Origin: Lysobacterales bacterium PRO7
Lineage (GTDB): Bacteria; Pseudomonadota; Gammaproteobacteria; Xanthomonadales; Rhodanobacteraceae
Assembly (NCBI GenBank): GCA_021404785.1
Contig: QWHH01000002.1
Span: forward strand, 186,001 to 250,000
DNA: 64,000 bases
Reading direction: 5' to 3'
The notes under the pieces: model-generated
Database searches by the model: none
What the model saw: the letters and a program-made list of their open reading frames with translations, nothing else
Told to the model about the DNA's origin: nothing
Program-made: the position numbers and the translations under genes
Shown: positions 4,349 through 19,485 of the stretch, piece after piece
Layout: each line of letters starts with the position of its first letter
Position numbering within the stretch: position 1 is the first letter of the stretch

Positions 4349-4365
4349 TGGCGGAGAGGGAGGGA
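4349..4365. repeat. Distal attachment site (17-bp repeat of tRNA-Ser 3' end)
   Basis: TGGCGGAGAGGGAGGGA here is identical to 19469-19485, which encodes the CCA end and acceptor/T-arm 3' strand of tRNA-Ser. Nothing else of a tRNA is present around this copy, as expected for the displaced end of an integration site. Confidence 0.9.
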
Positions 4366-4572
4366 CACCGTACGAAACGGCCCCAACCCGCTCCACGCCT
4401 ACCGCTTTCCGCTTGGCCCAACCCGGATTTGTGTCCAAGGGAGGTGACCAAGGGCGCGAAGAGTAGCACAAGCGGTCGCCCGGAAACATTCTGGCCCCAT
4501 GGTCTGTTCACGTGCACTTGCCGTGCACTCTTTTTCTGTTAGAAAAGCCGCGAGAACACCAGTAAGCCCGCC

Positions 4573-4731
4573 ATGCTGACCGACATCATTCGACGCTCTA
4601 GCGCTTGGTTTTGCACCATGGAATTACGTGGTCGCAAGATACTAACGGCCCTGTTCCCGTGGTGTGTCGCTATCGCCGTCTTGGCGGGCATCCAGTTTCT
4701 CCAACACTGCGTCGCCTACTACTATCACTAG
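4573..4731 (+). CDS. Small single-pass membrane protein, unknown function
   Basis: A 52-codon frame starting MLTDIIRRSSAW has a positively charged N-terminal third followed by one hydrophobic stretch of about 20 residues (around residues 27-43, ALFPWCVAIAVLAG) and a short aromatic tail. No family was recognised and no clear ribosome binding site is visible. Its TAG stop interlocks with the TAG stop of the membrane protein on the other strand within one CTAG, which suggests the two converge as real gene ends. The region is less GC-rich than the surrounding chromosome, in keeping with the mobile element. Confidence 0.45.
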   Translation: MLTDIIRRSSAWFCTMELRGRKILTALFPWCVAIAVLAGIQFLQHCVAYYYH

Positions 4732-4982
4732 CAGAGTTTGCCCCGCGACCACACCACCACCGCGCACATGACGGCACCAACAACCGCTCCCGAAGCGTAG
4801 GCCAAAAAAATGGGTGCGTAGATGAATCCGTAGCATACGAGTGCCGCTGATAGCCCTAGAAAAAATGACCACCACGGCATTAGGTTGTTTTTCCAACGGC
4901 AAAAAAGCGCAAGAAAGCCAAGAGTTGCCAAAGCACCGATAGCCAGCCCCTTCCCAAAAGGAACCATAATTGTTGGGTCCAT
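4728..4982 (-). CDS. Small multi-pass membrane protein, unknown function
   Basis: An 84-residue frame starting MDPTIMVPFGKG. The start was chosen because GGAGG lies about 8 bases upstream; the open frame runs 49 codons further but without a signal. Two or three hydrophobic segments are visible (GLAIGALATLGFLALF, WSFFLGLSAALVCYGFIY, IFLAYASGAVVGAVMCAVVV). It ends WSRGKLC. No family recognised. It converges with the 52-residue membrane protein on the plus strand, and is divergent from the 5098-6575 gene pair, with which it could share a promoter region. Confidence 0.65.
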   Translation of the reverse strand: MDPTIMVPFGKGLAIGALATLGFLALFCRWKNNLMPWWSFFLGLSAALVCYGFIYAPIFLAYASGAVVGAVMCAVVVWSRGKLC

Positions 4983-5097
4983 TCCCGACCTCCAGTAGAC
5001 CGCTAAACAGCAGAGCCAGTATAGATAGAATGTCGGTCTGAGGCGCGTTCCAGATCCACTCCCTTGAAAACGGCGCCGGCAGCCCAATGACGCTAAA

Positions 5098-5619
5098 ATG
5101 GTTGACGAAAAACGCTCGATGGACGTCATCCGCGCGGCGCGGAAGCTGCTTCAGGACCCTTACGCCTTCATCGAAGACCTCGAAGAAGAGGCCGAAGCGA
5201 GGGCAGCCCCTGTGCGCTCGGCGCTTCACCGGAGCGAAAACCCTTACGCTTCTTTGGCGGCCTGGGACGGGGACGATGACGACAGGCAGCAACAAGCGCC
5301 CGCACAATCACTGACCCCGCGCCCGGCGACCACCCGCGAATACCTCTCCAAAGAGGACTTCCTCGCAGAAGCCAATCGCATCTTCATGCCCTACGTGCCG
5401 CCGCATCTTCCGCGCCGGCTGCCCCAGCATCAACGCGATTTCATCGCGCGCAACAAGACTCGCTCGGGCAAGGCCCGGCACCGCATCGCCCAGGCCCTTC
5501 GCCGCTACGACCTGTCGACCACCCCGGGAATCGCGCAGCAATTCAACCGCGAATACAAGGACCACTGGGACGAACGCAAATTGCGCGCTATCGAGGCGCA
5601 GGTTTCCGACGACGACTGA
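5098..5619 (+). CDS. Unknown acidic/charged protein, coupled to the HExxH protein
   Basis: 173 residues, no recognised family. The N-terminal third is acidic (DLEEEAEA; DGDDDD near residues 57-62), then a proline/alanine linker, then a basic, probably helical C-terminal half (about residues 80-173) with RNKTRSGKARHR and a tail ending SDDD. No signal peptide or membrane segment. Its stop codon overlaps the start of the next gene (TGATG), so the two are almost certainly translated together. Partner or substrate of the downstream peptidase is a guess from context. No strong ribosome binding site precedes the chosen ATG; a second ATG seven codons in is also possible. Confidence 0.7.
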   Translation: MVDEKRSMDVIRAARKLLQDPYAFIEDLEEEAEARAAPVRSALHRSENPYASLAAWDGDDDDRQQQAPAQSLTPRPATTREYLSKEDFLAEANRIFMPYVPPHLPRRLPQHQRDFIARNKTRSGKARHRIAQALRRYDLSTTPGIAQQFNREYKDHWDERKLRAIEAQVSDDD

Positions 5620-6575
5620 TGCGCGCGACGCTGCCCCGATCGCAGGTTGAAACGTGGGCCGGCGCATGCTTGGCCTTGGGCAATGAGGTTGCTGATGCCG
5701 ACGGGTTTGTGTCGGTCCGCTCGCTGCTCCACCGTTTCGATGCCAGCATCGTTCTGCGACCCCTGCTGGTCGAAGCCATGCTGTGTGCATCCACCGATGC
5801 CGCCAATAACCCAGGGGCCAATGCGGCCCGCTGGCTTCTGCTCGTGGACAGTGAAAAATATACGTTTCCACACGAAGCATTGGACGGCGAGAGTTCGGCC
5901 GTTCCCCTGCCGGCCCGCTTCCGCAACACAGTCGCCCACGAGCTGACCCATTCCCTCGCCTATCGCGCCAAGGAGTTCGGGGTCAAACTCACGCTGCCCA
6001 CCACCAGCGACAAAAAGAAATCGTCCGCAGTGGTCGACGAAATCGAGCAGCACACCGAGAAACTGTCTCCCTTGCTGCTGGTGTCGCAACGCGCCATCGC
6101 GCAACGGTTTCCGAGCACCCTGGAATGGTTGACCCCGGACGTCTTGGCCACGGCCAGACGCGCGTGGGGCGTCTCGCGGTTCGTCCTCATCCAACGGCTG
6201 AATTTGATGCGTGGCCTGGAGGACCGGCTTGCGGAACGCCGCTGCTTCAACAACGTTGCCATCGGCGTCGGCTCCTGGGCGCGCGACGGTAGCGCCGTGC
6301 TCAACGGCTGGCCGCTGTTCGCGAAATTTGCCAACAATGAAGCGCCCGCGTTCATTCACGCACTGGTACGCGCCAAATCCATGGCTGCGTCCACTTTGAC
6401 TGGGGATCCGTCCTTTGTGCTCAACGGCGGTGATGTGCACGCATTGACGATGGACGTCGCGGCCGGAACCGAGCGGTCTCCCGAGTGGAGCCGGCTCCGC
6501 ATAGAGTTTGCCGTGGAACGCACTCAGCACAAAGCTGGAGGCATGTTCTTCTTCGTGGCGCGAGCGTTAATCTAA
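5619..6575 (+). CDS. ImmA/IrrE-like zinc metallopeptidase family protein (divergent)
   Basis: 318 residues with the zinc-peptidase motif HELTH at residues 107-111 (NTVAHELTHSLAYR) and an acidic segment about 30 residues on (VVDEIEQHTEKLSPLLL, E141/E143) placed like the third metal ligand and following helix of ImmA/IrrE (M78, DUF955) peptidases. The C-terminal 150 residues match nothing I recognise. No signal peptide, so cytoplasmic. ImmA peptidases cut XRE repressors of mobile elements; here an XRE protein ends 4 bases into this gene from the opposite strand. Whether it controls the element or is a toxin/defence enzyme cannot be told from sequence. Confidence 0.65.
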   Translation: MRATLPRSQVETWAGACLALGNEVADADGFVSVRSLLHRFDASIVLRPLLVEAMLCASTDAANNPGANAARWLLLVDSEKYTFPHEALDGESSAVPLPARFRNTVAHELTHSLAYRAKEFGVKLTLPTTSDKKKSSAVVDEIEQHTEKLSPLLLVSQRAIAQRFPSTLEWLTPDVLATARRAWGVSRFVLIQRLNLMRGLEDRLAERRCFNNVAIGVGSWARDGSAVLNGWPLFAKFANNEAPAFIHALVRAKSMAASTLTGDPSFVLNGGDVHALTMDVAAGTERSPEWSRLRIEFAVERTQHKAGGMFFFVARALI

Positions 6576-6901
6576 ATCTGGCGGCGTTTATCTTTCACGC
6601 CGCGGCGCGCCGGACGCTTTCGACTACCCATTTTCTTGCTGAACACCACGGGCTTCTGCGCCGCCATCGCTTTGTCGAGCATTCTTCCCAGCTCTTCCAT
6701 GGTGAGCCCGCACACCCGGCACCAGTCGTGAACCTGGAGCAAGTCCAGTCGCGAATCGCCCCGCTCCACGGCCGACACCCACCCTTGGGTGTGGCGCAGG
6801 CGCGCGGCCAGCTCTACCTGGGTCAGGTTGGCTGCTTTTCGAACTGCAACGAGACAGCCGACAACGGCAGGGTATTCCGCGCGATGAATGGACTTCGGCA
6901 C
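6572..6901 (-). CDS. XRE-family helix-turn-helix regulator
   Basis: 109 residues, starting at GTG with AGGAG 6 bases upstream. The helix-turn-helix spans about residues 14-65 (VRKAANLTQVELAARL...QGWVSAVERGDSRLDLLQ), typical of XRE/Cro regulators. The C-terminus is strongly basic (KKMGSRKRPARRGVKDKRRQ). It converges with the HExxH peptidase gene, overlapping by 4 bases, and reads away from the lipoprotein gene. This layout resembles repressor/anti-repressor-protease pairs such as ImmR/ImmA of ICEBs1; the functional link is inference. Confidence 0.8.
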   Translation of the reverse strand: MPKSIHRAEYPAVVGCLVAVRKAANLTQVELAARLRHTQGWVSAVERGDSRLDLLQVHDWCRVCGLTMEELGRMLDKAMAAQKPVVFSKKMGSRKRPARRGVKDKRRQI

Positions 6902-6926
6902 AGCCGTCTCCTGGGTGGACGGCTGT
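6900..6926 (-). promoter_or_regulatory. Hairpin presenting the XRE gene's ribosome binding site
   Basis: 8-bp perfect arms (ACAGCCGT and ACGGCTGT on the minus strand) flank an 11-nt loop containing AGGAG. The GTG start overlaps the end of the 3' arm. Such a fold would leave the Shine-Dalgarno exposed but partly bury the start codon. A translational control role is a suggestion only. Confidence 0.4.
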
Positions 6927-7036
6927 TCAACCTATACTCAAGGTTGTGTTAATCCGAGTATTAGTACTTGTGCTTGTATTATTTTGCATGCTAAAACAAA
7001 GCCGCAGACTTCCCCGCCAACCTAAAGGCCACACGT

Positions 7037-7402
7037 ATGCGAATCATCGGACTTCTCCTCCTTCTCGTGCTCGCTGCCGGCTGCACCGTGAGTAGCGGCG
7101 TCAAAGTCGACCCGAGCAAGATGAGCGACTTCAAAAAGGGCACCACCACCGAGTCGGAAGTAATAGGCCGCCTGGGTCAGCCATCCACGACCACGCACGC
7201 TACAGGCGGGGATTTGCTGAACTACGTGTTCACAACCTCAACCGCGTCCGGCGCCAACTTCGTGCCCGTGCTCAACTGGTTCAAAGGGCACACCGACTCC
7301 ACGACGACCATGTGCCAGTTCATGTTCGACGCGCGCCAAGTGCTCACGAGCTACTCGTGCGACGACGCCCATGCCGCGCAGAACGCACCGCTTGGTCGTT
7401 GA
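7037..7402 (+). CDS. Small lipoprotein, BamE/SmpA-like fold
   Basis: 121 residues. A hydrophobic signal sequence ends in a lipobox LAAGC with the lipidated cysteine at residue 16. The mature part has the pattern of BamE/OmlA-type domains: FKKGTTTESEVIGRLGQPSTTT followed by beta-strand-rich sequence. Such lipoproteins are frequent on conjugative and integrative elements with unknown roles. It is followed 20 bases later by a small membrane-anchored protein on the same strand, so the two probably form one unit ended by the hairpin at 7801. Confidence 0.7.
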   Translation: MRIIGLLLLLVLAAGCTVSSGVKVDPSKMSDFKKGTTTESEVIGRLGQPSTTTHATGGDLLNYVFTTSTASGANFVPVLNWFKGHTDSTTTMCQFMFDARQVLTSYSCDDAHAAQNAPLGR

Positions 7403-7422
7403 GCGCTTGACCTGGAGACCCC

Positions 7423-7779
7423 ATGGACCCTGCTGCCATCCTTGTCCTTGTAATCACCGGCCTCGTCGTGTGGGCGCTAAACAGCGCGGGCGCCAAGGCC
7501 AGCCCCGTCATCAAGCCCGACTCGTTCTCGCAAGCCGGTGTCGTGGTGAACTATGCGGCACGAACCATCGCCATCAACGGCAAGACCTATCCGGTCAACG
7601 CCGTGCGCGGGTTGAGCTCGGCGCGCGAATACAATCGGTCAGTGGCGTACATCACGATGACCGACCTTGAAATCCCCGTGCACAAAATCAACTTCAACTA
7701 CCACATGGAAGCCGCCCAAGCATTCATTGCGCGCCTCGGCGCAGCCATCGACAGGGCCGGCGGGCCGCATTTTCATTAG
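7423..7779 (+). CDS. Membrane-anchored small protein, unknown function
   Basis: 118 residues. One N-terminal membrane segment (ILVLVITGLVVWAL, residues 6-19) precedes a soluble domain with alternating hydrophobic strands (VVVNYAARTIAINGKTYPVNAVRGL) and a C-terminal helix. No family recognised. The domain order (anchor, small beta-rich domain, helix) resembles PH-like or DUF-type domains, but I cannot name one. It lies directly downstream of the BamE-like lipoprotein gene and before a rho-independent terminator. Confidence 0.65.
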   Translation: MDPAAILVLVITGLVVWALNSAGAKASPVIKPDSFSQAGVVVNYAARTIAINGKTYPVNAVRGLSSAREYNRSVAYITMTDLEIPVHKINFNYHMEAAQAFIARLGAAIDRAGGPHFH

Positions 7780-7800
7780 GGAAAACATCCACCCGCCGCC

Positions 7801-7827
7801 GAGCGCTTGATCCAAAGCGCTCGTTTT
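7801..7827 (+). terminator. Rho-independent terminator after the lipoprotein/membrane protein pair
   Basis: 8-bp arms GAGCGCTT/AAGCGCTC with a short loop, followed by GTTTTCC, 22 bases after the stop of the preceding gene. Confidence 0.65.
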
Positions 7828-8092
7828 CCACCCTAGTGTTATTGCGCGGTATACCGCGACCCGATTTCAAAATCCGCGCGGCGACGCCGATCAAAACGCG
7901 TCTTGACGAAGTGCCAATCCCGTTTACCTTGAGCGCCGATTCCGATTCGTGAATCAACGCTTCGGCACCGCTTCATGCCGAAAGGGATGGCCATGTAGAC
8001 CCACATTGCTCGTCGCACTTCGTGCGGGGCACAGAAAAAGAAAAGGCCCGGGATGAGGGATCCCAGGCCTTTCGCTACTGCGGTTGTTCGAC
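7828..8092. other. Non-coding stretch before the IS element
   Basis: No convincing gene. It holds a 14-bp perfect palindrome (CGCGGTATACCGCG, 7845-7858) and a GC-rich hairpin with flanking A and T tracts (8041-8073, AAAGGCC...GGCCTTT) that could act as a terminator in both directions. Confidence 0.5.
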
Positions 8093-8217
8093 TGTCCGCA
8101 TTCGCACTTTACTGTTCACCGGCACCCTGTCAAGCCACGCTCTGGAAGCGTCCGGCTCGGGCTGCCTGTTGCCCCGCCTTTCCCGCTTTGCTTGCCGCCC
8201 GCGGCACGAGGAAGGCC

Positions 8218-9741
8218 ATGATTCAGCTGCGCCACCTGATTAAGTTGATTTTGAAACGGCCGGACCTGTCGGTGCGCGCCATTGCGCGCCAAGCCCAGGT
8301 CGGCAAGAGCACCGCGCAGCGCTACAGGTTGGCGCTCGCACGCAGCGGCGACACGTGGGAAGCCGTCCAGGGCTTGAGCCTGAAAGAGCTTCACGCTCGC
8401 TACAACCGCAAGCCCCGTCGCGCACCCAAAGCGCCGCCGGACTTCGGCAGGGTGGCTGCGGAAATGGCGGCCAAGCGCAAAGGCGCGACACTGTGGGGCC
8501 TGTGGCGGGAATACCGGGAGGACGCCGGCGACAAGGCCCTGTCCTACTCGCGTTTTGCATACCTCTACAAAGAGCACTGCCGGGACAACGCCACGGTGCT
8601 GCGTCAGGACCATGTCCCGGGCTATGCCGCGTACGTGGATTACTCCGGCCAACGCGCGGCCTACATCGACGCGGCCACGGGGCAGGCGGTGGACGTCGAA
8701 ATCTTCGTGGGCGTGCTGCCGTGCTCGAACCTCATCTTTGCCCGCGCCGCGCTGTCGCAAACGGTGCTCGACTGGCTCGACGTCCACGTGCGCATGCTCG
8801 ACTACTTCGGCGGGGCGCCGCTCACCCTGGTGCCGGACAATCTGCGCGCGGCCGTGGCCAAGAGCGGTCGGGATGGCGAGATCCAACGCGCGTATTTGGC
8901 GTTTGCCGAACACCATCGTATCGCCATCCACCCCGCCCGGCCCTACCGGCCGCGGGACAAAGGGAAGGTGGAAAAATCGGTGAGTATCGTTCAACGGGAA
9001 ATCCTTTTTCCTCTGCGCGCGCGCGTGTTTCACTCCCTCGACGAACTCAACACCGCGTTGCTCGAACGGCTCGACGAGGTCAACCGCCGCCCCTTCCAAA
9101 AAAAGGACCTGGGCAGCCGGTGGGAACGGTTCACGACCCAGGAGAAACCCGCGCTTCAGCCTCTGCCGGCCGAGCGCTTTGCGTATGCCGAAATCGTCGG
9201 GCGCCAACGGGTGCCGAAGGACTACCACGTGCGCATTCACGACCACTTTTACTCGGTGCCTTTCGAACACGTGGGCCACCACGTGGAAGCGTCGATAACG
9301 CCGCAGTGGGTGGAGATCTACCACGCGCACGCGTTGGTGGCGCGGCACCGCCGCAGCGTCGTCAAAGGGGCGCGAACGACGGCCTATGAACACCACCCGG
9401 AGAAAAACCGCGCGCAGTTGGAGCGCACGCCCGAAGGGTTCGCACGGTGGGCCGATGGCGTCGGGCCGAACGTGCGCCGGCTGGTCGAGGCGCAGTTTGA
9501 AAACCGCAAGGTGCCGCTCCAGGGCCTTCACGCCTGCGACGCGCTCAAGAACCTGGCGCACCGCCACGGCGCGCCGCAGCTGGAGCGCGCTGCTGGCAAA
9601 GCGGTGGCGATGCGCATGCTCACGGTGGACGGGGTAAAGCGGTGCTTGAGCGATACAGCCACGGTGGTGCGGTGGCGACCGACGGCGGCGCCGGCCAACC
9701 TTCGCGGCGCCGACCACTACAAGACGGGAGTGGCCGCATGA
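8218..9741 (+). CDS. istA: IS21-family transposase IstA
   Basis: 507 residues if started at the ATG giving MIQLRHLIKL, the usual IstA start; a longer frame upstream reads into the IS end. An N-terminal helix-turn-helix (DLSVRAIARQAQVGKSTAQRY, residues 16-36) precedes an rve/DDE core with all three acidic residues: D141 (VDYSG), D207 (VPDN) and E252 (GKVEKSV). The C-terminal Mu-type beta-barrel region is present. It catalyses cut-and-paste transposition with IstB as helper. The stop overlaps the istB start (ATGA). Confidence 0.93.
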   Translation: MIQLRHLIKLILKRPDLSVRAIARQAQVGKSTAQRYRLALARSGDTWEAVQGLSLKELHARYNRKPRRAPKAPPDFGRVAAEMAAKRKGATLWGLWREYREDAGDKALSYSRFAYLYKEHCRDNATVLRQDHVPGYAAYVDYSGQRAAYIDAATGQAVDVEIFVGVLPCSNLIFARAALSQTVLDWLDVHVRMLDYFGGAPLTLVPDNLRAAVAKSGRDGEIQRAYLAFAEHHRIAIHPARPYRPRDKGKVEKSVSIVQREILFPLRARVFHSLDELNTALLERLDEVNRRPFQKKDLGSRWERFTTQEKPALQPLPAERFAYAEIVGRQRVPKDYHVRIHDHFYSVPFEHVGHHVEASITPQWVEIYHAHALVARHRRSVVKGARTTAYEHHPEKNRAQLERTPEGFARWADGVGPNVRRLVEAQFENRKVPLQGLHACDALKNLAHRHGAPQLERAAGKAVAMRMLTVDGVKRCLSDTATVVRWRPTAAPANLRGADHYKTGVAA

Positions 9742-10655
9742 GCACGGCGCACGACTTGGCGGTGGCGTTTCGCCGTTTGCGGTTGCGCGACATGGCCGAC
9801 ACCCTCGACAGCTGGCAAGGCGCGATGTCGGCGGCGACATTGCGCGTGCTCGAAGCGCTGACCACGGCCAAAGCGAACGGCCAGCACGTGCGCCGGGTCG
9901 AACGCGCGGTGGCCGCGGCGAGGTTGCCGCAATCGGCCGCGCTGACGCAGTTCGTGACCGGCCCTCGGCGCCTGCCGTCCACCGACGCGGCCACGGTGCG
10001 GGCGCTGGAAAACTGCCGCTGGGTGAAGGACGGTCGCGCGATGCTCCTGACCGGGCCATCCGGTGCAGGAAAAACGGCGCTGGCCTGCGCCTGGGCGCGC
10101 GAGGCCATTGAGCGCGGCTACCGCGTGCGGTATTGGGACGCCACGGATTTGTTCGACCGTTGCGAAAACATGGCCCACCGCCACGAACTTGACGCGCTGT
10201 GGCGAGAACTCGACCGCTGCGATTTGCTGGTAATCGACAACTGGCTGACGGTGTGGATGGACGCGCACCGCCAAACGTTGGCGTTTCGCCTGCTGGAACG
10301 CCGCGAAGGCCACCGTTCCACGGTCGTGGCCAGCGTTGAGCCGGTGAGCGCGTGGAGCGGTCGCATGGAAGACGCGCTCATCGCCGAGCAACTGATGGAC
10401 CGGATGGCGCGCGCGCACCGGTTCGAGTTGACGGGGAAATCGTTGCGGCTCGTGCCGGATGACACTGCGGCGGAAGTGTCCCACGAAGCGCTACACAGTG
10501 TCCGGAGGCGCAGGAATCTACAGGATGTAAAATCCTGCGCCTCCGGACACCATGTGTCATCTGTCCCGGGACACAAGAACTGCGGGCGTTGGACACCTGG
10601 CCGCAAACCACCATCGTCCACGAAGCGGGCTGGGAGATCAAAGCGGAAACGTTAG
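9738..10655 (+). CDS. istB: IS21-family helper ATPase IstB (altered C-terminus)
   Basis: AAA+ ATPase that directs IstA to target DNA. Starting at the ATG overlapping the istA stop gives 305 residues, longer than the usual 240-260. Walker A is GPSGAGKT (residues about 105-112). The Walker B region is DLLVIDNW where IstB proteins normally have a second acidic residue (DD or DE), so ATP hydrolysis may be weakened. The last 50 or so residues are translated from the IS end and beyond, across a long palindrome, so the native stop seems lost. Confidence 0.85.
   Translation: MSTAHDLAVAFRRLRLRDMADTLDSWQGAMSAATLRVLEALTTAKANGQHVRRVERAVAAARLPQSAALTQFVTGPRRLPSTDAATVRALENCRWVKDGRAMLLTGPSGAGKTALACAWAREAIERGYRVRYWDATDLFDRCENMAHRHELDALWRELDRCDLLVIDNWLTVWMDAHRQTLAFRLLERREGHRSTVVASVEPVSAWSGRMEDALIAEQLMDRMARAHRFELTGKSLRLVPDDTAAEVSHEALHSVRRRRNLQDVKSCASGHHVSSVPGHKNCGRWTPGRKPPSSTKRAGRSKRKR
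10498..10550. repeat. Perfect 18-bp inverted repeat at the IS21 right end
   Basis: Arms GTGTCCGGAGGCGCAGGA (10498-10515) and its exact complement (10533-10550) enclose a 17-nt loop. It lies inside the extended istB frame, not followed by a T-tract, so it is unlikely to be a simple terminator. It may be a doubled IS end or a small insertion. Confidence 0.8.
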
Positions 10656-10723
10656 CAGCAGTGAGCGCTGTATCAGCCTGCGAGTGGATTTGTGAAACGC
10701 GACGAAGCGAACACCCTCCGCCA

Positions 10724-11827
10724 TCAAGCGTTTTGGTCGTCCAGCGTGCCTTCCGTCGCTGATCCCGTGGCAAAAAGCATTGAGACGAAGAACACTACGC
10801 CTGCGGCCACCGGGTGAAACGCCAGCAGGAGGAATGAGGAGGCGACGCCCAGGTAGTAAAGTCGATACAGTTTAAGTCGTAGACGCTCGTCCCCCGACAG
10901 GGGCTTCGCGGGCTCCAAGCTCAGCGTCATGATGTTGGGATTGGTTTCGTCCACCAACTGCCAGTCGGCTTTGGTTTCGGATTTTGCCGGGGCGGACTCC
11001 ACCGGCTCGAACAAATCTCCCTGCGATGAGCTGTTGGCATCGATCAAGAACCGCTCGTAATAGAGGTCCACATTGAACGCCTGAATGGATACCACCTCGC
11101 CAAAGGACAGGACAACCCGAAACTGATTGATAAGGTTGACCGCCTCCTCTGGTGTGCTTTGCGTGATTTCCCCATAAATCTGCGCGTAGTTGGTCGGAAG
11201 CTCCAAGCCTGATTGATCGTCGCGGTAACCGGAAAGCAAAGGAAAGAGAGTCAGCCATTTCCGTTCGACGTCCGGCAAAGACGACGTAGCCACCGAATAG
11301 CCGACGTATACTTTTCCGCTTTTTAGCGTTATGGCAAGCGGTACGCCGCAGTCCAAGGAATGCGCGTAGATTTGTTCGATGGCGTCGTAAGCACCCACCT
11401 TCTTCATCATGGCCTGCATCAACCGCTGACTTTGAAAGACAGGGAGGTTGAAAAGCCAGGGGAGCACCGCCGCCAGAACCAACGACCAACCAGCGCTTTC
11501 GGCAAAATCGGCCAGGTTGTCGGCATTCTTCTGGGCCGCCCTGTCCACCGCGGCTTGAGCTTTGTCGTCCGCAGCCGCCTTTACTTCTTCGCCAGTCGGC
11601 AGAAGCTCAATGAATTCGTGCTCAATCCTCGAAAAATCTGCGAAATTTTCTTTCGTGAAGTGGTGAACGCAGGCACCAAGCGCCAAAAGACAAACGGCAG
11701 CCACACCCGCGGAAAAATACTGAGGGTGCCCGATTTCTTGCAGGGCTATGAATCGAGTTTGAAGCCATCGCCGCACGAACACCCATCCGGCCGCTAGAGC
11801 TACGGCCGCTATGGTCAGTGCAGACAC
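10724..11827 (-). CDS. Multi-pass membrane protein with a soluble central domain, unknown function
   Basis: 367 residues. Hydrophobic segments are seen at about 1-20, 38-55, 110-130 and as a C-terminal pair (LGVASSFLLLAFHPVAAGVVFFVSMLFATG). The first periplasmic or cytoplasmic loop is acidic and alanine-rich, probably helical. The central domain contains VPLAITLKSGKVYVGYSV and PLLSGYRDD, a pattern of short strands reminiscent of Sm-like barrels; this similarity is a visual impression only. No family was recognised. It is followed downstream by the IS21 remnant and preceded 21 bases upstream by a 68-residue protein on the same strand, possibly one transcript. Confidence 0.75.
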   Translation of the reverse strand: MSALTIAAVALAAGWVFVRRWLQTRFIALQEIGHPQYFSAGVAAVCLLALGACVHHFTKENFADFSRIEHEFIELLPTGEEVKAAADDKAQAAVDRAAQKNADNLADFAESAGWSLVLAAVLPWLFNLPVFQSQRLMQAMMKKVGAYDAIEQIYAHSLDCGVPLAITLKSGKVYVGYSVATSSLPDVERKWLTLFPLLSGYRDDQSGLELPTNYAQIYGEITQSTPEEAVNLINQFRVVLSFGEVVSIQAFNVDLYYERFLIDANSSSQGDLFEPVESAPAKSETKADWQLVDETNPNIMTLSLEPAKPLSGDERLRLKLYRLYYLGVASSFLLLAFHPVAAGVVFFVSMLFATGSATEGTLDDQNA

Positions 11828-12055: not shown

Positions 12056-12183
12056 GGGGGGCACCTCCTACGGCAATCACCATGCTACCCGGAACCACGA
12101 ACCAGCGCCACCAGACCGGGTAAACAGCGCAAGACGCCACCAGGGCCCTTTGGGCCCAGTGTCTTGCCGCTTGGTTGCGGAGG

Positions 12184-12405: not shown

Positions 12406-12475
12406 TTTTAACCTCACAAATCCCGGCGAAACGAAGCCGGGCCAAACGCGATGTGGGGTTTCGTTGAATCAACTT

Positions 12476-14035
12476 TCAAGGTCTGCAAGGTCTGCGAACC
12501 ACCCGAGGAGAAGGGCGCTGAACCAAAGCCGGTGGCGTGGGTGCAGAAGGCTTGACGTCGCTTGGCCTATCGTCCCCCGGCACGCCATACGTGCGTCGGC
12601 GCTGTGCCTCGACTTCGTCCAGCGCGCGTTTGGCAAGGTTCACGCGCTCCATCTCCGCCCGGACACCAGATCGTTCACTCGCGCCTTCCTCGGCCCACTT
12701 GGCTTGCGCCAGGGCGATCCGCTGGGCCTCTCGCTTCTGGGCCCACTCACGCCGGCTCAACACGCGCAGCCGGCTGGGAGCCGGCTCTGCTTCGGTGCGT
12801 TCGAGTGCGGCACGTGCCTCGGCAGTTCGAACCATGGCTTCGCCCCGGCGGTTACGGGCGGTGTCGAGACCGACTCGGGCCTCCTCAACGGCACGACGCG
12901 CTTCCAGGGCGCGGCGCAGCACGCCAAAACAGCCAGGGTCTCGCTGACCGTGAAGGGCCAGCGCCTCGGCGTCGGCGAGTGTGCGGCCGAACACCTGCGT
13001 GTAGGCCAACACGGTCCGGCGATTTTGTTCGGTTATTTCAACGCGTACCCGTTCGAGCATGGCTGCAAAGCGCCGAGTCGCCCGCTCGTCCTGCCGCTGC
13101 CGCCGCTGGACTTGCCGGGCCTGGGCGGCGATTGCCCGAGCTCCGGGGCCGCTCGGGTGTAGATTCCTGTAGCTCCGGGTGCCGGGTCCTTCCGGCCGTG
13201 CTATCCGCACACGAGATGCCGACCCAACGCGCAGCGCAGAGGCACCGCGCGCCAAGCGAAGATAATCAGAAAAAATAATCCGATTGCTCGCCCGTATGTG
13301 CATGTTGGTATCGGACGCCAGCAGATTTCGCCGCCGCATTGCCGTGATGGACCGCCCTAGGTGGACCGTAGGCCTCCTCGTCAACACGATGGCCCGCGCA
13401 TAGTCGCCGCGAGCCGCCGCGTCGTCGGCTTGGGCTTTGAGCGTGCGGTGGTCAACGCGCTCGGCCAAGCCAGCGCGCGCCAGGTGTCGGTTGGTGATGT
13501 CGGCAACCGCCTCGCGCAACGCACGGACCTCGACTGGACCGGTTGCCCGGTCGTCGAGCACGCGCACCTTGGCGCCCAATCCCTCGGGTCCTACGCGGCG
13601 CGTGGTCATCAAAATGTGGGCATGATGGTTGCGCTGGTCCCCGCGCGCGTCGGGGGCGTGCGTGGCCGCCATCGTGGCGACGCCATAGCGGTTGACCAGC
13701 CACCGGCACACCTCGCCCACCAAGTCGGCACGACCGCCGGCCGAGAGTTCTGCCGGCAGCGCCACCACGGCCTCACGCGCGACCCGTCCATTTCGGCCCC
13801 GCACCTCGGCAGCTTCGCAAGCGTTGAACAACGCCGATGGATTGGACGCCCAGACGGCAGCACCTGCCGGTGCGAAAAAATCGACACGCTCCACGCCGCG
13901 GCGTTTGGTGTAGTCGTGGACCTCACCGGTCCGTTCGTCCTCGATACGAACGCCTGCACGGTAAGCGGCGGCGGCCGTGGCGGATTCACCGCGGGTGCGG
14001 GAAAACACTTTCAAGCGGACGTGGTAGAGGGCCAT
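12476..14035 (-). CDS. MobA/MobL-family (MobQ) relaxase
   Basis: 519 residues. It begins MALYHVRLKVFSRTRGESATAAAAYRAG, the classic start of MobA/MobL relaxases, with the likely nicking tyrosine at about residue 25 and the metal-binding histidines in NHHAH (residues 136-140). GGAG lies 9 bases before this ATG, so two earlier starts were rejected. The C-terminal half is alanine/arginine-rich, long helical or coiled coil. The enzyme nicks oriT and pilots the strand into a recipient through a helper secretion system. The matching oriT is at 15543-15590, 1.5 kb upstream with two other genes between. Confidence 0.93.
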   Translation of the reverse strand: MALYHVRLKVFSRTRGESATAAAAYRAGVRIEDERTGEVHDYTKRRGVERVDFFAPAGAAVWASNPSALFNACEAAEVRGRNGRVAREAVVALPAELSAGGRADLVGEVCRWLVNRYGVATMAATHAPDARGDQRNHHAHILMTTRRVGPEGLGAKVRVLDDRATGPVEVRALREAVADITNRHLARAGLAERVDHRTLKAQADDAAARGDYARAIVLTRRPTVHLGRSITAMRRRNLLASDTNMHIRASNRIIFSDYLRLARGASALRVGSASRVRIARPEGPGTRSYRNLHPSGPGARAIAAQARQVQRRQRQDERATRRFAAMLERVRVEITEQNRRTVLAYTQVFGRTLADAEALALHGQRDPGCFGVLRRALEARRAVEEARVGLDTARNRRGEAMVRTAEARAALERTEAEPAPSRLRVLSRREWAQKREAQRIALAQAKWAEEGASERSGVRAEMERVNLAKRALDEVEAQRRRTYGVPGDDRPSDVKPSAPTPPALVQRPSPRVVRRPCRP

Positions 14036-14227
14036 GCCGACGTTCTCCATCAAAGTCAGTTCACCTTATGGCACGACACAGAACCCGCAAGGCACAATCT
14101 CCATCTACGAGACGAACGCCTTGCAGACTGCCATGGTCGGCGTCCCTGCCCCCTGCTCCTCCCGCTTGCCCCTTGCACTCCCTGGTCAATCACGCCAGCA
14201 TTCACGCTCACCCAGGCTGCCTAATCC

Positions 14228-14902
14228 GTGAACGCTACTCAAGACTCGAACCCCGCCAATGACCTTCGCCGTGTGGCCGGCACCCGCCGGTTTCATACGG
14301 TTCTTGCTGACCCGCCTTGGCGCTTTCAAAACCGCACGGGAAAGATGGCCCCGGAGCACCGCCGCTTGAGCCGCTACGGCACGATGACGCTGGACGACAT
14401 CTGCGCGTTGCCGGTGGCCGACCTTACGGCCGAGCCGGCACACCTTTACTTGTGGGTGCCCAACGCGCTAATGCCCGAAGGTTTGCGAGTGATGGAAGCC
14501 TGGGGCTTCCAGTACAAGTCGAACCTCGTTTGGCACAAGATCCGAAAGGACGGTGGCCCAGACGGTCGCGGAGTCGGTTTTTACTTTCGGAACACCACCG
14601 AATTGTTGCTATTCGGCGTGCGTGGCAAGAACGCTCGCACTCTGGCGCCGGGTCGGCGTCAGGTCAACTTTCTGGCGACGCAGAAACGCGAGCACTCCCG
14701 GAAACCAGACGAGCAATACCCGTTGATTGAGGCGTGTAGCCCTGGGCCTCGGCTCGAACTTTTCGCCCGGGGTTCTCGCCCAGGGTGGACAGTATTCGGC
14801 AACCAAGCCGACGACTACAGCCCGACTTGGAAGACTTACGCGAATCACTCGCAAGCGCACCGCGCCGCTGGCAAGACGGCGCGGGGTCAATCTTCGACGT
14901 AA
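14228..14902 (+). CDS. MT-A70-family DNA adenine methyltransferase
   Basis: 224 residues. The N6-adenine catalytic motif DPPW is at residues 28-31 and the MT-A70 features follow (YGTMTLDDICALPV; HLYLWVPNALM; WGFQYKSNLVWHK; FRNTTELLLFGVRG). The enzyme transfers a methyl group from S-adenosylmethionine to adenine. Its 3' end overlaps by 16 bases the 3' end of a BglII-like endonuclease gene on the other strand, so it is probably the protective methylase of a Type II restriction-modification system. The target is not readable from sequence; MT-A70 proteins also occur as solitary phage-type methylases. Confidence 0.9.
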   Translation: MNATQDSNPANDLRRVAGTRRFHTVLADPPWRFQNRTGKMAPEHRRLSRYGTMTLDDICALPVADLTAEPAHLYLWVPNALMPEGLRVMEAWGFQYKSNLVWHKIRKDGGPDGRGVGFYFRNTTELLLFGVRGKNARTLAPGRRQVNFLATQKREHSRKPDEQYPLIEACSPGPRLELFARGSRPGWTVFGNQADDYSPTWKTYANHSQAHRAAGKTARGQSST

Positions 14903-15474
14903 AGGCCCTCACTGATTCCGAACACGAGCACCGGGCAACCGCCACCGCCACCGCCTTCAATTCGCGGCACGAGTTTCGACATGTGCGTGGTGCTGTTGCC
15001 GTAGGAGCTTCCCTTGTCCAGCTCGTTGAAGATTCGCTGGAGTTCCGAGCAACGCGTGATGATGACGCCGACACTGATGGCGCGCAGGTCGAACAACAAG
15101 CGGAAGTTGTTCAAGTCCCGGTCAAAAAATGGATCTTTGTTGTTCCATTCGATTTCGAGGGCCACACGGTTCTTGAAGCAGTCGACTTTGTGGGTCGGCG
15201 TGTCCATCGTGTGGTCGTCCACACGGATTTGAGTCTCAAACTTCTTTTCCTTCCACCCACGCGCCGCCAGCTTTCCGTCAATCCAACCGGAAATCTCCGA
15301 CTTACTGCCGCCGGGCGCACGGACTTTGCTCCGATACAGACGGAACTCGTTGAGCACCGCTTGAATGTCGGCGAACTCATTGGGAAAGTCAGTGGCCAAG
15401 ATGGCCGTGGCATGCCGCCACTCGTGGATCTCGTAGTGGTCGAGGATGAACTTACTCAATCTTTCGATGGGCAT
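14887..15474 (-). CDS. BglII/BstYI-like Type II restriction endonuclease
   Basis: 195 residues. The region HKVDCFKNRVALEIEWNNKD contains D98, E107 and E109, the spacing (+9, +11) of the BglII active-site residues D84, E93 and Q95; the third position is Glu here. The surrounding IEWNNKDPFFDRDLNNFR resembles the core of BglII-fold enzymes, which cut GATC-centred sites. It converges with and overlaps an adenine methyltransferase gene, the expected partner. No control (C) protein gene is adjacent. The function is inferred from motif and context; activity and specificity are unknown. Confidence 0.82.
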   Translation of the reverse strand: MPIERLSKFILDHYEIHEWRHATAILATDFPNEFADIQAVLNEFRLYRSKVRAPGGSKSEISGWIDGKLAARGWKEKKFETQIRVDDHTMDTPTHKVDCFKNRVALEIEWNNKDPFFDRDLNNFRLLFDLRAISVGVIITRCSELQRIFNELDKGSSYGNSTTHMSKLVPRIEGGGGGGCPVLVFGISEGLYVED

Positions 15475-15542
15475 GTGCGGATCCCGCAGGTCTCCCCGGA
15501 TCCTAGACGGAGGAGGGGCCGCTGCATAGACGCACGCTCGCC

Positions 15543-15590
15543 GCCACCCGGTGGCGGGGCAAACCCATCGGGTTTGCGTAAGTGCGCTGT
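15543..15590 (+). promoter_or_regulatory. oriT, RSF1010/MobQ type
   Basis: A perfect 8-bp inverted repeat (GCAAACCC, loop ATC, GGGTTTGC; 15559-15577) is followed at once by GTAAGTGCGC, the conserved nick-region core of MobQ plasmids such as RSF1010 (inverted repeat then GTAAGTGCGCCCT). A second inverted repeat (CCGCCAC/GTGGCGG) precedes it. It lies between the endonuclease and TraD-like genes and matches the family of the relaxase present. Confidence 0.85.
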
Positions 15591-15692
15591 TGCTCCGTTC
15601 CTCCCGCTCCGATTCCGCCCCAGATTCCAGCCCTTGCGCCGGTATACTTTTTTGCTATTCATGGTGGAGATTCCGACCAAGGACCGCCCACC

Positions 15693-16007
15693 ATGACGCC
15701 GGACGTTGCCCGCCCCACCCTCTCCGAACTGCTCTACACGCTCGACCGCGCCACGCGCCTTTACCGCGAGTCCATCAAGCACGCGCCCGGCGAACTTGAC
15801 CGCTTGGGCTGGTCCACATTGAGCGACTTGGCCGAACGCACCGCCACTCAAGCGCGTCTGGTGCTCAACCGCACGACCATGCCGGATCGCTCCCACTACG
15901 ATTTCGAGCCGCCGCTTGGCTTCATCGACCGAGCCTTGGGCACGCGCCTACACGAACGGCGCGAGCGCCTGCGCGGAACCTCCGCCCCACGGCCGCGCCT
16001 CCACTGA
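15693..16007 (+). CDS. Small mobilization-associated protein, unknown function
   Basis: 104 residues starting MTPDVARPTLSELLYTLDRA, all predicted helical, hydrophilic, with a basic C-terminus (LHERRERLRGTSAPRPR). The ATG was preferred over a longer upstream frame that would run through the oriT-proximal region. It overlaps the following TraD-like gene by one base (TGATG), so the two are coupled. From its place beside oriT it may be an accessory protein of the relaxosome; no family was recognised. Confidence 0.65.
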   Translation: MTPDVARPTLSELLYTLDRATRLYRESIKHAPGELDRLGWSTLSDLAERTATQARLVLNRTTMPDRSHYDFEPPLGFIDRALGTRLHERRERLRGTSAPRPRLH

Positions 16008-16345
16008 TGGCCACCGTTGACGAACGCCTGACGGCGCGGATTGCCGCCACCTCGCACCGGCTCGGTCAGTTAAAAGCGCGCGAGCTCCTTCGCGAAATGA
16101 GGGCCACCGAGCGCCGGCGGTCGAGCGAGCGCCGTGCGCTGGCGCGTCGCCGCGTCGAGTTGGGCGACGCCGCCATCAAAGCGGGTTGTGGCGATTGGTT
16201 GCCGGCGGAAATCGTCGGAGTTTTGCTCGACGCGCGCGAGCGGTTTGGCTCGTCGTCAACGCAGCGGTTGGGCATGCGAAAGCGGGGGGAGGCGCACATA
16301 GCGGGAACGCCCAACGCCCTGGGCGCCTCGGGCACGCTTCATTGA
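16007..16345 (+). CDS. TraD-like small conjugal transfer/mobilization protein
   Basis: 112 residues. The N-terminal part is basic and helical (TSHRLGQLKARELLREMRATERRRSSERRALARRR), followed by VELGDAAIKAG, the arrangement of the short TraD/MobC-type mobilization proteins (TraD family of Ti plasmids, not the coupling ATPase). The C-terminus WLPAEIVGVLLDARERF is also typical. It probably binds DNA or the relaxase at oriT. Cotranscribed with the 104-residue gene before it. Confidence 0.7.
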   Translation: MATVDERLTARIAATSHRLGQLKARELLREMRATERRRSSERRALARRRVELGDAAIKAGCGDWLPAEIVGVLLDARERFGSSSTQRLGMRKRGEAHIAGTPNALGASGTLH

Positions 16346-16372
16346 ATGCGGGATTCCGGGCCCCCAACGGCG

Positions 16373-17233
16373 CTACGTCTTGCCACGTGCCGCGTCAACT
16401 TCATTACGATTCAGAATGACCACCTGCTGGCGCTCGGGCCCGACGCCATCGAGATCCAGGCACAAGTTTTTCTCGAAGTAGTAGACCATCGCCACTCTCA
16501 TGCGCACTTCTTTGACACCATTTTCCATGCCGTAGTCCAGCTCAATAACCCGACGGTGGGCTTCTGGCAAATCAGGGTGAGGGGCCAAGCGCAAGACAAT
16601 GTCCTCGTTCCATTCGCGGTCGAGCGACCCGTCTATTTCTGCCGGACGCGTCTCGTCCCGAACCACGGAAATGAAACGGGCAATCACCATGTCCAAAAAC
16701 TGTGATCGCTTGTAGCACCATGCCCGCGCATGCCACCTGAATCCATCGAAGCCCAAGCCATGTGGGGCTATCCAACGCTCGGTCGGCTCGGGATTGCTCA
16801 AGGATTGGTAGACAATCCGTATGGCCTGCCGGCTATGGATGGCACGAACAATGACGCGAAGGACCTCTGGATCCATTCGGCGCCTGACCTTTGGAATGGC
16901 GGCGTGCGACGGCACCGCTCCGACCCATGTAGCACTGGGTTCCAATGCGTCGTCCGCGATGAGCAACAACTGGCTCAGGTAGGCACGGGCGTCTGGCTTC
17001 ATGAATCGGGGCGCGAAGTCCGGCGTCGCCAGGAACGCTTTTTCCTTGTGGTCGTAGGCCATGTTGCCGGGTGCCATCTGCTCATAGTGGGCGACATCGG
17101 CAGAAGCCTGGGGCACGGAGATACCGAAACGCTCGGTCAAATCGACCTTGTTCACCCTCCCTACCCAAAAAAGGCGCTGTTCGAGAAAGGCGAACCGCTG
17201 TGCAACGCTCCATCGGACGGATTCGGTCTGCAT
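16373..17233 (-). CDS. WYL-domain transcriptional regulator, BrxR/CapW type
   Basis: 286 residues. The N-terminal winged helix carries the signature of BrxR/CapW regulators (RLFWVGRVNKVDLTERFGISVPQASADVAHYEQMAPGN...), then a WYL domain with IVYQSLSNPEP, RWIAPHGLGFDGFRWHARAWC and a C-terminal WCX-like part. Such proteins are ligand-controlled repressors of BREX, CBASS and other phage-defence loci. No BREX or CBASS genes are in this element, so it is an orphan that may control neighbouring genes or the restriction system. A GTG four codons earlier is an alternative start. Confidence 0.88.
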   Translation of the reverse strand: MQTESVRWSVAQRFAFLEQRLFWVGRVNKVDLTERFGISVPQASADVAHYEQMAPGNMAYDHKEKAFLATPDFAPRFMKPDARAYLSQLLLIADDALEPSATWVGAVPSHAAIPKVRRRMDPEVLRVIVRAIHSRQAIRIVYQSLSNPEPTERWIAPHGLGFDGFRWHARAWCYKRSQFLDMVIARFISVVRDETRPAEIDGSLDREWNEDIVLRLAPHPDLPEAHRRVIELDYGMENGVKEVRMRVAMVYYFEKNLCLDLDGVGPERQQVVILNRNEVDAARGKT

Positions 17234-17245
17234 ATAAATCACCAA

Positions 17246-17291
17246 CTTACTGTATTTTCTTAAGAATTATTATATTGTGAGTTGCAGTAAG
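17246..17291. promoter_or_regulatory. Possible operator of the WYL regulator
   Basis: AT-rich gap between the WYL gene and divergent small genes. It holds inverted CTTACTG (17246-17252) and CAGTAAG (17285-17291) arms and a central palindrome TTCTTAAGAA (17257-17266). BrxR-type proteins bind inverted repeats upstream of their own gene; binding here is inference. Confidence 0.35.
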
Positions 17292-17392
17292 ATGAACTTT
17301 TGAATATAGTTTCTATCACCTTGAGTCCATGTTGACGAAAGCGGCTTATTGGCAGCAGCCAGCAAGCAACTATGAAAAATGAGGTTTTTATT

Positions 17393-17557
17393 ATGGCAGC
17401 AAAGTATTGGTCCGGCCAAGTGTGCCCCAAGACGGCCAACTATGGGCAATACCACGACACCGATAACCAGTATGCCGGGAAGGAATACGACCGGCATGTG
17501 GCCAAGGACGAGCGGTTTCCGCCCAGCAAGAACAACCACCATTTCGAGGAAAAGTGA
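17393..17557 (+). CDS. YjzC-like small protein
   Basis: 54 residues starting MAAKYWSGQVCPKTANYGQY. The ATG with GAGG 9 bases upstream was preferred to one seven codons earlier. The pattern G-x-x-C/A-P-x-(S/T)-x-x-Y near the start and ERFPPSKNNHHFEEK near the end resembles the small YjzC family of unknown function. It is divergent from the WYL regulator and precedes a GhoS-like gene by 59 bases. Confidence 0.65.
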   Translation: MAAKYWSGQVCPKTANYGQYHDTDNQYAGKEYDRHVAKDERFPPSKNNHHFEEK

Positions 17558-17616
17558 TTGCGGTTGGGCCCGGTCTCTGAAGAGGCCGGGTCTTGCGCAT
17601 CACGAAGGAGAAAAAC

Positions 17617-17895
17617 ATGTCCCGCTTTACCGTTCGCGTCGAGCTTCACGGTGCCACCGAAGCCGATTATCAGCAACTTCACGCCGCCATGAGTCGCGGC
17701 GGTTTCAGCCGTGTCATCGAAGGAAGCAACGGGGTCAGCTACCACCTGCCCACGGCCGAGTATGATTACTCATCCACTGAAACGGTCTCCCAAGTTCGGG
17801 ACAGGGCTTACGCAATCGCCTGCACCGTGAAGCAAAATCCTGCGGTCTTGGTAACCGAAGGAGGCTGCGCTTGGAAAGGTTTGGCTACGGCCTGA
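17617..17895 (+). CDS. GhoS/DUF2622-family protein
   Basis: 92 residues with AAGGAG 6 bases before the ATG. FTVRVELHGATEADYQQLHAAMSRGGFSRVIEG and SYHLPTAEYDY match the DUF2622 group that includes the E. coli antitoxin GhoS, an endoribonuclease with a ferredoxin-like fold that cleaves ghoT mRNA. No GhoT-like membrane toxin is next to it, so function as antitoxin is not shown; the neighbours are a YjzC-like gene upstream and the integrase downstream on the other strand. Confidence 0.7.
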   Translation: MSRFTVRVELHGATEADYQQLHAAMSRGGFSRVIEGSNGVSYHLPTAEYDYSSTETVSQVRDRAYAIACTVKQNPAVLVTEGGCAWKGLATA

Positions 17896-17896
17896 C

Positions 17897-19384
17897 TTAC
17901 TTCCGCCCTTTCTTCTTGCGCGGTGGGTCGGGCGCGGTCAACGCAGCGCCCACCCCGTCGAGGTCAAGGCCGAACGTGAGCCCCTCGACACCCGCGGTCT
18001 GAAACGGCCCGCTGGCCACACCGTAGAGCAACTGTCGGGCCGAGAAGATTTTCCCGTAAACCTCGTGGTGTTCGCCGGCGTTCTCGTGCCCCACGTATTC
18101 CTTCCGCGCTTCTTCGCGCACGCCCAAATCCTTGAGCGCCTGGATGACGGTCTTGCGCAGGCTGTGGAAGCCGACCTTGCCAACGACCACGCGGATGTCT
18201 TGCTCGACAAGTAAGCGTCCGTAGGCCTTGCTCAACCAGTTTCCCATGCCGTTCACGCTGCCGGCCTTGGCGCGTGGGAACAACTGCGTTTCGCCTTGGG
18301 CCAGCAACGCGTCCACACGTTCGCGCAAACCCAAGCGCACCAAGTCAGGGTGTACGGGAATGGTGCGCACGCTGGCTTCGTTCTTCACCGACTGCCCCAC
18401 CCCTTCGTCGGTGATGTTCATCGACCACACGCCGTCATCGTCGAAGAAATCGCCCAAGGCCAACTGCCCGACCTCGCCCACGCGCGCGCCGGTGTACAAC
18501 CCGATAACGGCACCCCAGCGCGTTTGAGTGTTCGTGCCTGCCAACACTTTGGGAGCGTAAAGCTTGCGCACCTGTTCAAGCGTTAGCGCTTTGAAACCGT
18601 GCTTCCTTCGCTGTCGCTTTTCGTTCTTGCCACGCTGGATGTGCTTGGTCGATGGGTTGCGCTCCTCCCCGACCGGGTAATGACCTGCCCCTTGCGCCCA
18701 GGTGAAGAACCCTTTCAAGTAAGCGCATTTGTTTTCAAGGGTCGATGTGGTTAGACCGCTCGTGCGCAGCGAGTCGAGCCATTGGGACACGTCCGTGCGC
18801 GACACGGTGTGGACGTCCACTTTCGGCCCTTTGTATTTTGCGAAACTTTCGATGGCGGCCCGTTTTTGTGTCAATGTCTTGGCCGGTATGCGCCCCTTGA
18901 GCGTGGCCAGATAAGTGGAAGTCGCCGCACTCAATGAGTTGGCGACAATGCCGGCAGGCACAGCCTCGGGCGGCGCTGACGGGCGCGCGGGCGGCAGCGC
19001 AGACGCAAACACGATTCGCATGGCGTCCAGTGCGCCGGCATTGTCTTGAGCGCTGCCATCTGTGGTTATCTTGGTCAGCATGCCGGAAGCGGGATCGCGC
19101 TCCAGCGTCCAGTCCTGGGTACGTCCGGCCCCGACGTTTGCCAGGATGTCCGCGACGGAAGGCGGCGGTGGCTTCGGCATGGCAGCTTCCCGGGCAGCGG
19201 CGAAGTACGCAGCATACCGAAGACCGAGCACGTAGGCGGTCGCCCGTGCCCGCAAGACGTCGCAGGTGCCCAGCGAACGCTTGATGACCGACACACCCAG
19301 CACCGGGCACAGACTGCGCGGCACACGCAAGCGAAAATGCCACACGCCGGAGCGGTGGCGGACCAAGTAGTGGGGGGTTCGCAT
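17897..19384 (-). CDS. int: Tyrosine recombinase/integrase
   Basis: 495 residues from the ATG giving MRTPHYLVRHRSGVWHFRLRVP (a TTG six codons earlier is less likely). It has an N-terminal arm-binding DUF6538-like domain, a SAM-like core-binding domain (residues about 150-240) and a C-terminal catalytic domain with GARVGEV (first Arg), the VKNEASVRTIPVH hairpin, HSLRKT (His and second Arg) and GHENAGEHHEVYGKIF (His and the nucleophilic Tyr). All catalytic residues are present. It starts 84 bases from tRNA-Ser, its evident attachment site. Confidence 0.95.
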   Translation of the reverse strand: MRTPHYLVRHRSGVWHFRLRVPRSLCPVLGVSVIKRSLGTCDVLRARATAYVLGLRYAAYFAAAREAAMPKPPPPSVADILANVGAGRTQDWTLERDPASGMLTKITTDGSAQDNAGALDAMRIVFASALPPARPSAPPEAVPAGIVANSLSAATSTYLATLKGRIPAKTLTQKRAAIESFAKYKGPKVDVHTVSRTDVSQWLDSLRTSGLTTSTLENKCAYLKGFFTWAQGAGHYPVGEERNPSTKHIQRGKNEKRQRRKHGFKALTLEQVRKLYAPKVLAGTNTQTRWGAVIGLYTGARVGEVGQLALGDFFDDDGVWSMNITDEGVGQSVKNEASVRTIPVHPDLVRLGLRERVDALLAQGETQLFPRAKAGSVNGMGNWLSKAYGRLLVEQDIRVVVGKVGFHSLRKTVIQALKDLGVREEARKEYVGHENAGEHHEVYGKIFSARQLLYGVASGPFQTAGVEGLTFGLDLDGVGAALTAPDPPRKKKGRK

Positions 19385-19468
19385 GGGGCCGGTTGTGTCC
19401 AACCGGGGTGTCCAAGCGGAAAACGCCTGACTTTGCTAACCACTTCAAATCCCAAAGGATTTTGAAAG

Positions 19469-19485
19469 TGGCGGAGAGGGAGGGA
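19469..19485. repeat. Proximal attachment site within tRNA-Ser 3' end
   Basis: Same 17 bp as 4349-4365. It includes the CCA end and acceptor/T-stem 3' strand of tRNA-Ser(GCT), so the tRNA stays functional after integration. Confidence 0.9.

Follow-up and report, generated by a model that had tools for sequence, protein, structure and literature searches.

A 15.1-kb MobQ-type insertion with defined ends in tRNA-Ser of Lysobacterales bacterium PRO7 is very probably an integrative and mobilizable element

According to a 2017 review, the integrative and mobilizable elements (IMEs) known by then from Proteobacteria did not include any that encodes a canonical relaxase of its own but lacks a type IV secretion system (T4SS) (PMC5704250). 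Later reports do describe such proteobacterial IMEs (PMC8627217, PMC13310844); one of them, from 2026, presents an isolate of the Stenotrophomonas maltophilia complex whose island GI_4 contains an IME-like region of the MOBQ type, 19,156 bp long (PMC13310844). Here, we describe a 15.1-kb segment (4349-19485) of a 64,000-nucleotide stretch from Lysobacterales bacterium PRO7 (assembly GCA_021404785.1, contig QWHH01000002.1, positions 186,001 to 250,000 of the forward strand), hereafter called the window. This segment is very probably an IME inserted in tRNA-Ser, as a preliminary description of the window, made from its letters and open reading frames (ORFs), had proposed. As far as can be read from its sequence, it is integrated in the chromosome between delimited attachment sites (attL/attR) together with its own integrase gene, it carries its own origin of transfer (oriT) and relaxase gene, and it encodes no mating-pair apparatus of its own among the families searched.

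The ends of the element are marked by an exact 17-bp repeat, TGGCGGAGAGGGAGGGA, found at 4349-4365 and at 19469-19485 (both on the minus strand), which are its sole two copies when both strands of the 64-kb window are considered. As announced in the preliminary description, one copy, the second, on the integrase side, forms the 3' terminus of a tRNA-Ser gene that is intact (GCT anticodon; 19469..19561, minus strand; called by ARAGORN and by the Rfam tRNA model with 53.8 bits) and that is the integration target; the repeat takes in the CCA. A search of the genus covered 17 genomes, and the tRNA array was examined in 8 of them. In one of these (G012), tRNA-Arg(acg) and tRNA-Ser(gct) are adjacent and form an empty site; when the two flanks of the window are joined to each other, they match it at 92% along 385 bp. 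When the flanks are aligned singly, the left match runs to 4365, where the first repeat ends, and the right match begins 3 bp before 19469. A second uninterrupted site exists in G010, with tRNA-Arg and tRNA-Ser 52 bp apart and no insert between them. Since these two genomes have empty sites and since the alignment switches at the repeats, the element corresponds to 4349-19485, one repeat belonging to the site, and its ends lie at the repeats to within 3 bp. The idea that repeat and tRNA gene coincide by chance, the genes between them being a resident chromosomal region, is refuted by the same G012 junction at the repeats and by the uninterrupted G010 site; nothing was seen that speaks in its favour, and we give it practically no credence. 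Outside the element, at 4231-4288 of the window, a partial tRNA-Arg-like copy was also seen: 19 bp match the 5' part of the tRNA-Arg gene exactly, and a stretch that resembles a hairpin comes next. The G012 empty site has this copy too.

The tyrosine integrase claimed for this element is encoded at 17897..19402 on the minus strand, its ATG lying probably at 19384. Its DUF6538 and SAM-like domains score above their cut-offs and Phage_integrase reaches 25.2 bits, just below the cut-off of 27.1; no paper naming DUF6538 was found in the open-licence literature. Six residues that we take to be catalytic (R307, K340, H413, R416, H439 and Y449) are invariant in 18/18 aligned integrases, a set of integrase-cluster proteins, second integrases among them, drawn from the window plus 11 relative regions. 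Among 198 genomes, 22 matches to this integrase were obtained, and 19 were made into loci: 12 stand beside tRNA-Ser genes with various anticodons and 6 stand beside tRNA-Gln(ctg), and for one the stretch examined contains no tRNA. Identity to the integrase of the window is 41-64% for the tRNA-Ser group and 37-41% for the tRNA-Gln group, and the bit scores separate by target without overlap (at least 321 for tRNA-Ser versus at most 278 for tRNA-Gln). A tRNA-Ser(gct) gene beside csrA, as in the window, is found in the integrase loci of G001, G051, G015 and G060. Far-side copies of the tRNA end were detected in 7 of the 11 relative regions, 12.4 to 30.8 kb off, and none within the roughly 18 to 38 kb examined in the other four (G050, G029, G138 and one G171 region); the relatives, which the preliminary description had named as the place where the genes might occur without the repeat, thus mostly have it. 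A MobQ gene lies no more than 35 kb from the integrase gene on the same contig in 12 of 20 integrase-bearing genomes, PRO7 included.

Two pairs of short direct repeats, each with 13-bp spacing, lie near the two ends of the element. The int-proximal pair (TTGGACAC twice; 19395..19415, minus strand) stands directly upstream of the likely int ATG, and a repeat search found the distal pair (TTGGACAC/TTGGTCAC) at 4431..4451 on the minus strand. Compared with shuffled sequences, the int-proximal pair has a p of about 0.003 in the window; p is at most 0.05 in 13 of 18 loci and above 0.05 in the other five (L035, L097, L099, L101 and L040). The letters of the repeats differ between elements, and the window, G015, G031 and G102 each have a matching set on both sides, while the repeat pattern caught one copy each on the far side of G025 and G060. 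These paired repeats are probably the arm-type sites of the integrase. A separate candidate, a 13-bp match (CAAGGGCGCGAAG, at 4449 and 19564) read as a tRNA promoter captured at the distal end, was rejected, as shuffling the left end gave an equal alignment score in 44 of 500 cases. The distal-end stretch instead resembles the distal arms of G015 (alignment score 48) and G025 (60), versus 32 for the tRNA region, the shuffle control covering the tRNA-region match only.

The relaxase (12476..14053, minus strand) belongs by sequence to the MobQ family, as the preliminary description had it: it scores 206.2 bits with NF041496, above the curated cut-off of 200, matches PF03389, and is similar to the solved nicking enzyme 4ht4. 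Its residues Y31, H132, H144 and H146, which we take to belong to the active site, are invariant in 11/11 aligned relaxases. For oriT, which had been claimed without coordinates, the identification rests on a conserved hairpin, which places it at 15559..15591 on the plus strand. There, an 8-bp perfect hairpin (GCAAACCC-ATC-GGGTTTGC, 15559-15577) is followed by G and the motif TAAGTGCGC (G and TAAGTGCGCTGTT over the whole feature). The motif matches once in the window, versus 0.02 matches expected. Of 51 loci, 35 have it immediately behind a perfect stem of 6 bp or longer. The 51 comprise the window, 32 relaxase loci and 18 relative loci; several of the 35 are near-identical, so that the number of independent cases is smaller. 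Further relaxase loci (among them L055, L058-L060, L065, L071, L072, L095 and L096) stayed outside this count. Counted by site, such a stem precedes 35 of the 45 occurrences of the motif, versus 150 of 20,400 random places. Since 16 different 5' arms occur among these stems, some being near-variants of each other, the stem is preserved while its letters change; in the alignment the stems occupy different columns. Directly upstream of the hairpin, a second GC-rich inverted repeat (CCGCCACC/GGTGGCGG, 15541-15557) was read by eye and is perhaps a site for an accessory protein. In the related element of G015, a tRNA-Ile(GAT) gene (L093:16018-16091) lies between oriT and the accessory gene.

Next to oriT, a 104-aa protein without any profile match is a candidate mobilization accessory factor (15693..16007, plus strand, with the start placed by alignment, the ORF being listed from 15582), and its homologues adjoin TraD in G015 and G031. 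The following gene (16007..16345, plus strand) is the one that had been called TraD-like. The name holds, since it matches PF06412 with 27.8 bits (cut-off 22.3), but this is the small TraD family of Ti plasmids, a relaxosome accessory protein, and not a VirD4-type coupling protein: a T4SS-DNA_transf domain, as in the type IV coupling proteins VirD4 and F TraD, is missing from it. TraD homologues are found in the regions of G015, G029, G031, G050 and G102. In G015 the order is int, TraD, small protein, oriT and a divergent MobQ gene; in the window, a restriction pair is placed between MobQ and oriT.

The preliminary description had also concluded that the element lacks a transfer apparatus and should move only with help, and this conclusion stands. 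No transfer-apparatus family was found among the scanned proteins of the element, and neither VirB4 (PF03135) nor VirD4 (PF02534) has a match in the host genome (2.81 Mb on 19 contigs, 99.5% complete), a search that was limited to these two families, which matched in 1 and 5 of 14 control genomes, respectively. Because no VirB4 or VirD4 family match exists in the host genome, a helper would have to come from outside.

Put together, these features suggest how the element might move. The tyrosine integrase would recombine the 17-bp core of attP with the same 17 bp at the end of the tRNA-Ser(GCT) gene, which would stay whole, and the paired arm-type repeats flanking attP would be likely extra binding sites for it; as the int-adjacent repeats stand directly before the start of int, the integrase may also regulate itself. 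Once excised, the circle would be nicked at oriT by its own MobQ relaxase, with TraD and the 104-aa protein assisting. A single strand would then exit by way of a helper element, which would provide both the mating channel and the coupling protein.

Several findings weigh against a mobile element of this kind. Sixteen of the 51 loci lack the combination of motif and perfect stem, and the second base after TAAGTGCGC is G in the window, whereas it is C in 13 of 14 other aligned sequences and A in the last one. Five of the 20 integrase-bearing genomes have no MobQ match at threshold (one of them, G025, shows a weak relaxase match), and three have MobQ on another contig. The tRNA array leads uninterrupted to tRNA-Ser, within the stretch examined, in only 2 of the 8 genus genomes (G012 and G010); in 5 of the 8, no tRNA-Ser was found at the array within that stretch, and in G015 the order differs, its tRNA-Ser lying elsewhere with a related element inserted in it. 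No excisionase family was recognised among the proteins scanned, the host genome yielded no helper, and an IS21-family istA/istB pair (overlapping ORFs 8053-9741 and 9642-10655, plus strand; not listed in the preliminary description) lies inside the element, which may have aged. One could thus imagine a former IME that is no longer excised or mobilized and that is retained as an island for its restriction system. Such a decayed remnant would fit with the IS21 genes, the variant base in oriT, the missing excisionase match and a host without VirB4 or VirD4, but the frames of the integrase, relaxase and TraD genes are open, the invariant residues of the integrase and the relaxase are retained and the two attachment repeats are identical. 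We therefore hold a remnant to be unlikely, though it is the most serious of the alternatives to an IME.

The cargo of the element includes the restriction-modification pair that the preliminary description had recognised. An MT-A70 DNA adenine methyltransferase (14228..14902, plus strand) was identified by profile, and it is linked to a restriction endonuclease of the BglII family (14887..15474, minus strand; PF09195, E 2.3e-49) for which no solved structure was matched by sequence, so that the two genes read as a type II restriction-modification system; the BglII/BstYI family has a specificity for RGATCY-type sites. The endonuclease family is present in 16 of 369 genomes of the class, PRO7 included. 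In 7 of the 15 loci other than this one, a relative of the MT-A70 gene adjoins the endonuclease gene, which makes this a genuine pair that travels. Besides being cargo, it may help to stabilise the element.

On the other side of TraD, the gene that had been assigned to the BrxR/CapW regulators (16373..17245, minus strand) does encode a WYL protein that resembles, over nearly its full length, the solved structures of CapW and BrxR (7tb6, CapW of S. maltophilia, E 2.5e-66; 7t8k, E 2e-38). Divergent from it lies a gene for a 61-aa protein that matched no family (17372..17557, plus strand), followed by a gene for a 100-aa GhoS/YmfI-like protein (17593..17895, plus strand) that scores 52.9 bits with NF051477 (below the cut-off of 140), E 2e-23 with phrog_8894 and 17.2 bits with GhoS (below the cut-off of 21), the homologue in G031 reaching 22.7. 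Among 197 other genomes, the three closest relatives of the WYL gene (61-67% identical) are in G031, G050 and G102, and all three have the 61-aa gene divergent beside them; the 100-aa gene is also present in G031, and the WYL copy of G102 is broken. No CBASS or BREX model was found among the PADLOC matches of 10 element proteins, a set that left out the 61-aa protein, the 104-aa protein, TraD, the relaxase and the integrase, and none was suggested by Pfam. As far as these scans reach, the locus is not a CapW/BrxR locus linked to CBASS or BREX, and the three genes could possibly form a small regulated module of their own. One report states that almost half of BrxR-family homologues adjoin known defence systems (PMC9122601); since it is only almost half, a CapW/BrxR gene with other partners would not be exceptional.

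The likeness of the 100-aa protein to the YmfI phage family bears on whether the segment could rather be the satellite of a phage, or what is left of a prophage, with the tRNA gene as its site and the relaxase secondary. Integration at tRNA ends by a tyrosine recombinase is a trait that prophages share. Yet no capsid, terminase, packaging or phage replication family appeared in the scanned proteins (PHROGs on 10 proteins), scans of viral contigs, which reach close relatives only, gave no relative of the integrase, a scan with the 100-aa protein gave none either, and oriT together with a MobQ relaxase fits conjugation. A phage origin is thus very improbable compared with an IME.

Further cargo lies between the distal end and the relaxase gene. 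A hypothetical 173-aa protein without a family match (ORF 5098..5619, plus strand) overlaps the next gene, which encodes the HExxH protein of the preliminary description (5619..6575, plus strand). The motif can be read in the ORF, but the peptidase assignment is weakened by an ImmA/IrrE-like (M78) match of only 13.7 bits for a Pfam cut-off of 22; no relative was found at E at most 1e-8 in 197 other genomes, and its structure matches were at chance level only. An Xre-type helix-turn-helix protein follows (6572..6901, minus strand; HTH_31 and HTH_3, with a weak HipB likeness), and it is a matter of speculation that the HExxH protein is part of an ImmA/ImmR-like switch. No inverted repeat was found at the ends of the IS21 genes and no close copy in plasmids; istA relatives, 38-46% identical, are found in the relaxase regions of G015, G029, G050 and G102 (loci L093, L102, L103 and L104), with istB in three, and may be either chance insertions or a conserved part of such regions. 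Far from the element, the window contains a yybP-ykoY manganese riboswitch (40244-40392; 57.8 bits for a gathering score of 45).

One may go further and picture an unnamed, order-wide family of MobQ mobilizable elements, with integrases split by target between tRNA-Ser and tRNA-Gln, with element-specific paired arm repeats that double as an int operator, and with the exchanged CapW-type regulator, 61-aa and GhoS-like module acting as an undescribed defence or transfer-control unit; this whole picture is speculative and we would not expect it to hold in full.

Among sequenced replicons, the nearest likenesses come from plasmid records. The mobilizable plasmids NZ_MT313930.1 and NZ_CP021099.1 carry a MobQ relaxase domain as well, with identities of 50.5% and 49.0% across roughly half of the protein. 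A region of the Xanthomonas hortorum plasmid CFBP498_p224 has an integrase (38% identical) and a MobA/MobL relaxase (45% identical) about 20 kb apart, together with a helix-turn-helix protein and a restriction endonuclease gene, but it differs by a second integrase, a nucleoid-associated protein, other cargo and the lack of a tRNA in the 37 kb scanned. Together with the gene order, this relative points to a host that is probably one of the Lysobacterales (Xanthomonadales), as PRO7 is. The traACD IMEs of Mesorhizobium resemble our element in that their relaxase gene diverges from a Ti-type traC and is accompanied by traD, an arrangement like that at the Ti oriT, and in that their tRNA sites include tRNA-Ser; they differ in being alphaproteobacterial and in having relaxases classed as MOBF, the single MOBQ IME being at tRNA-Trp (PMC8627217).

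The preliminary description had not recognised the gene set as a described element, and indeed no identical set was found in the literature searched, but an IME-like region of the same kind at the same site has been reported. The GI_4 region, as presented in the relevant part of that report, lies at tRNA-Ser(gct) with csrA and recX-recA-lexA nearby and tRNA-Arg(acg) upstream, and it has attL/attR repeats called by ICEberg, a MOBQ relaxase, phage-type integrases and no T4SS. It differs by its two integrases and yejK, and a separate repeat search in the same paper gave no direct repeats for the island, whose description, in the part considered, mentions neither oriT nor arm sites; we liken it to our element by its description and not by its sequence (PMC13310844). 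The element of PRO7 is sound, ordinary and well mapped: it offers a cleanly delimited gammaproteobacterial example of the kind of IME that brings a canonical relaxase but lacks a T4SS, a restriction system is seen to travel in it between the relaxase gene and oriT, and the mapping of its ends, empty site, oriT and candidate arm sites makes excision and helper-dependent transfer directly testable. Both its kind and its integration site are already in print (PMC13310844), and it is a well-delimited further member beside that region.

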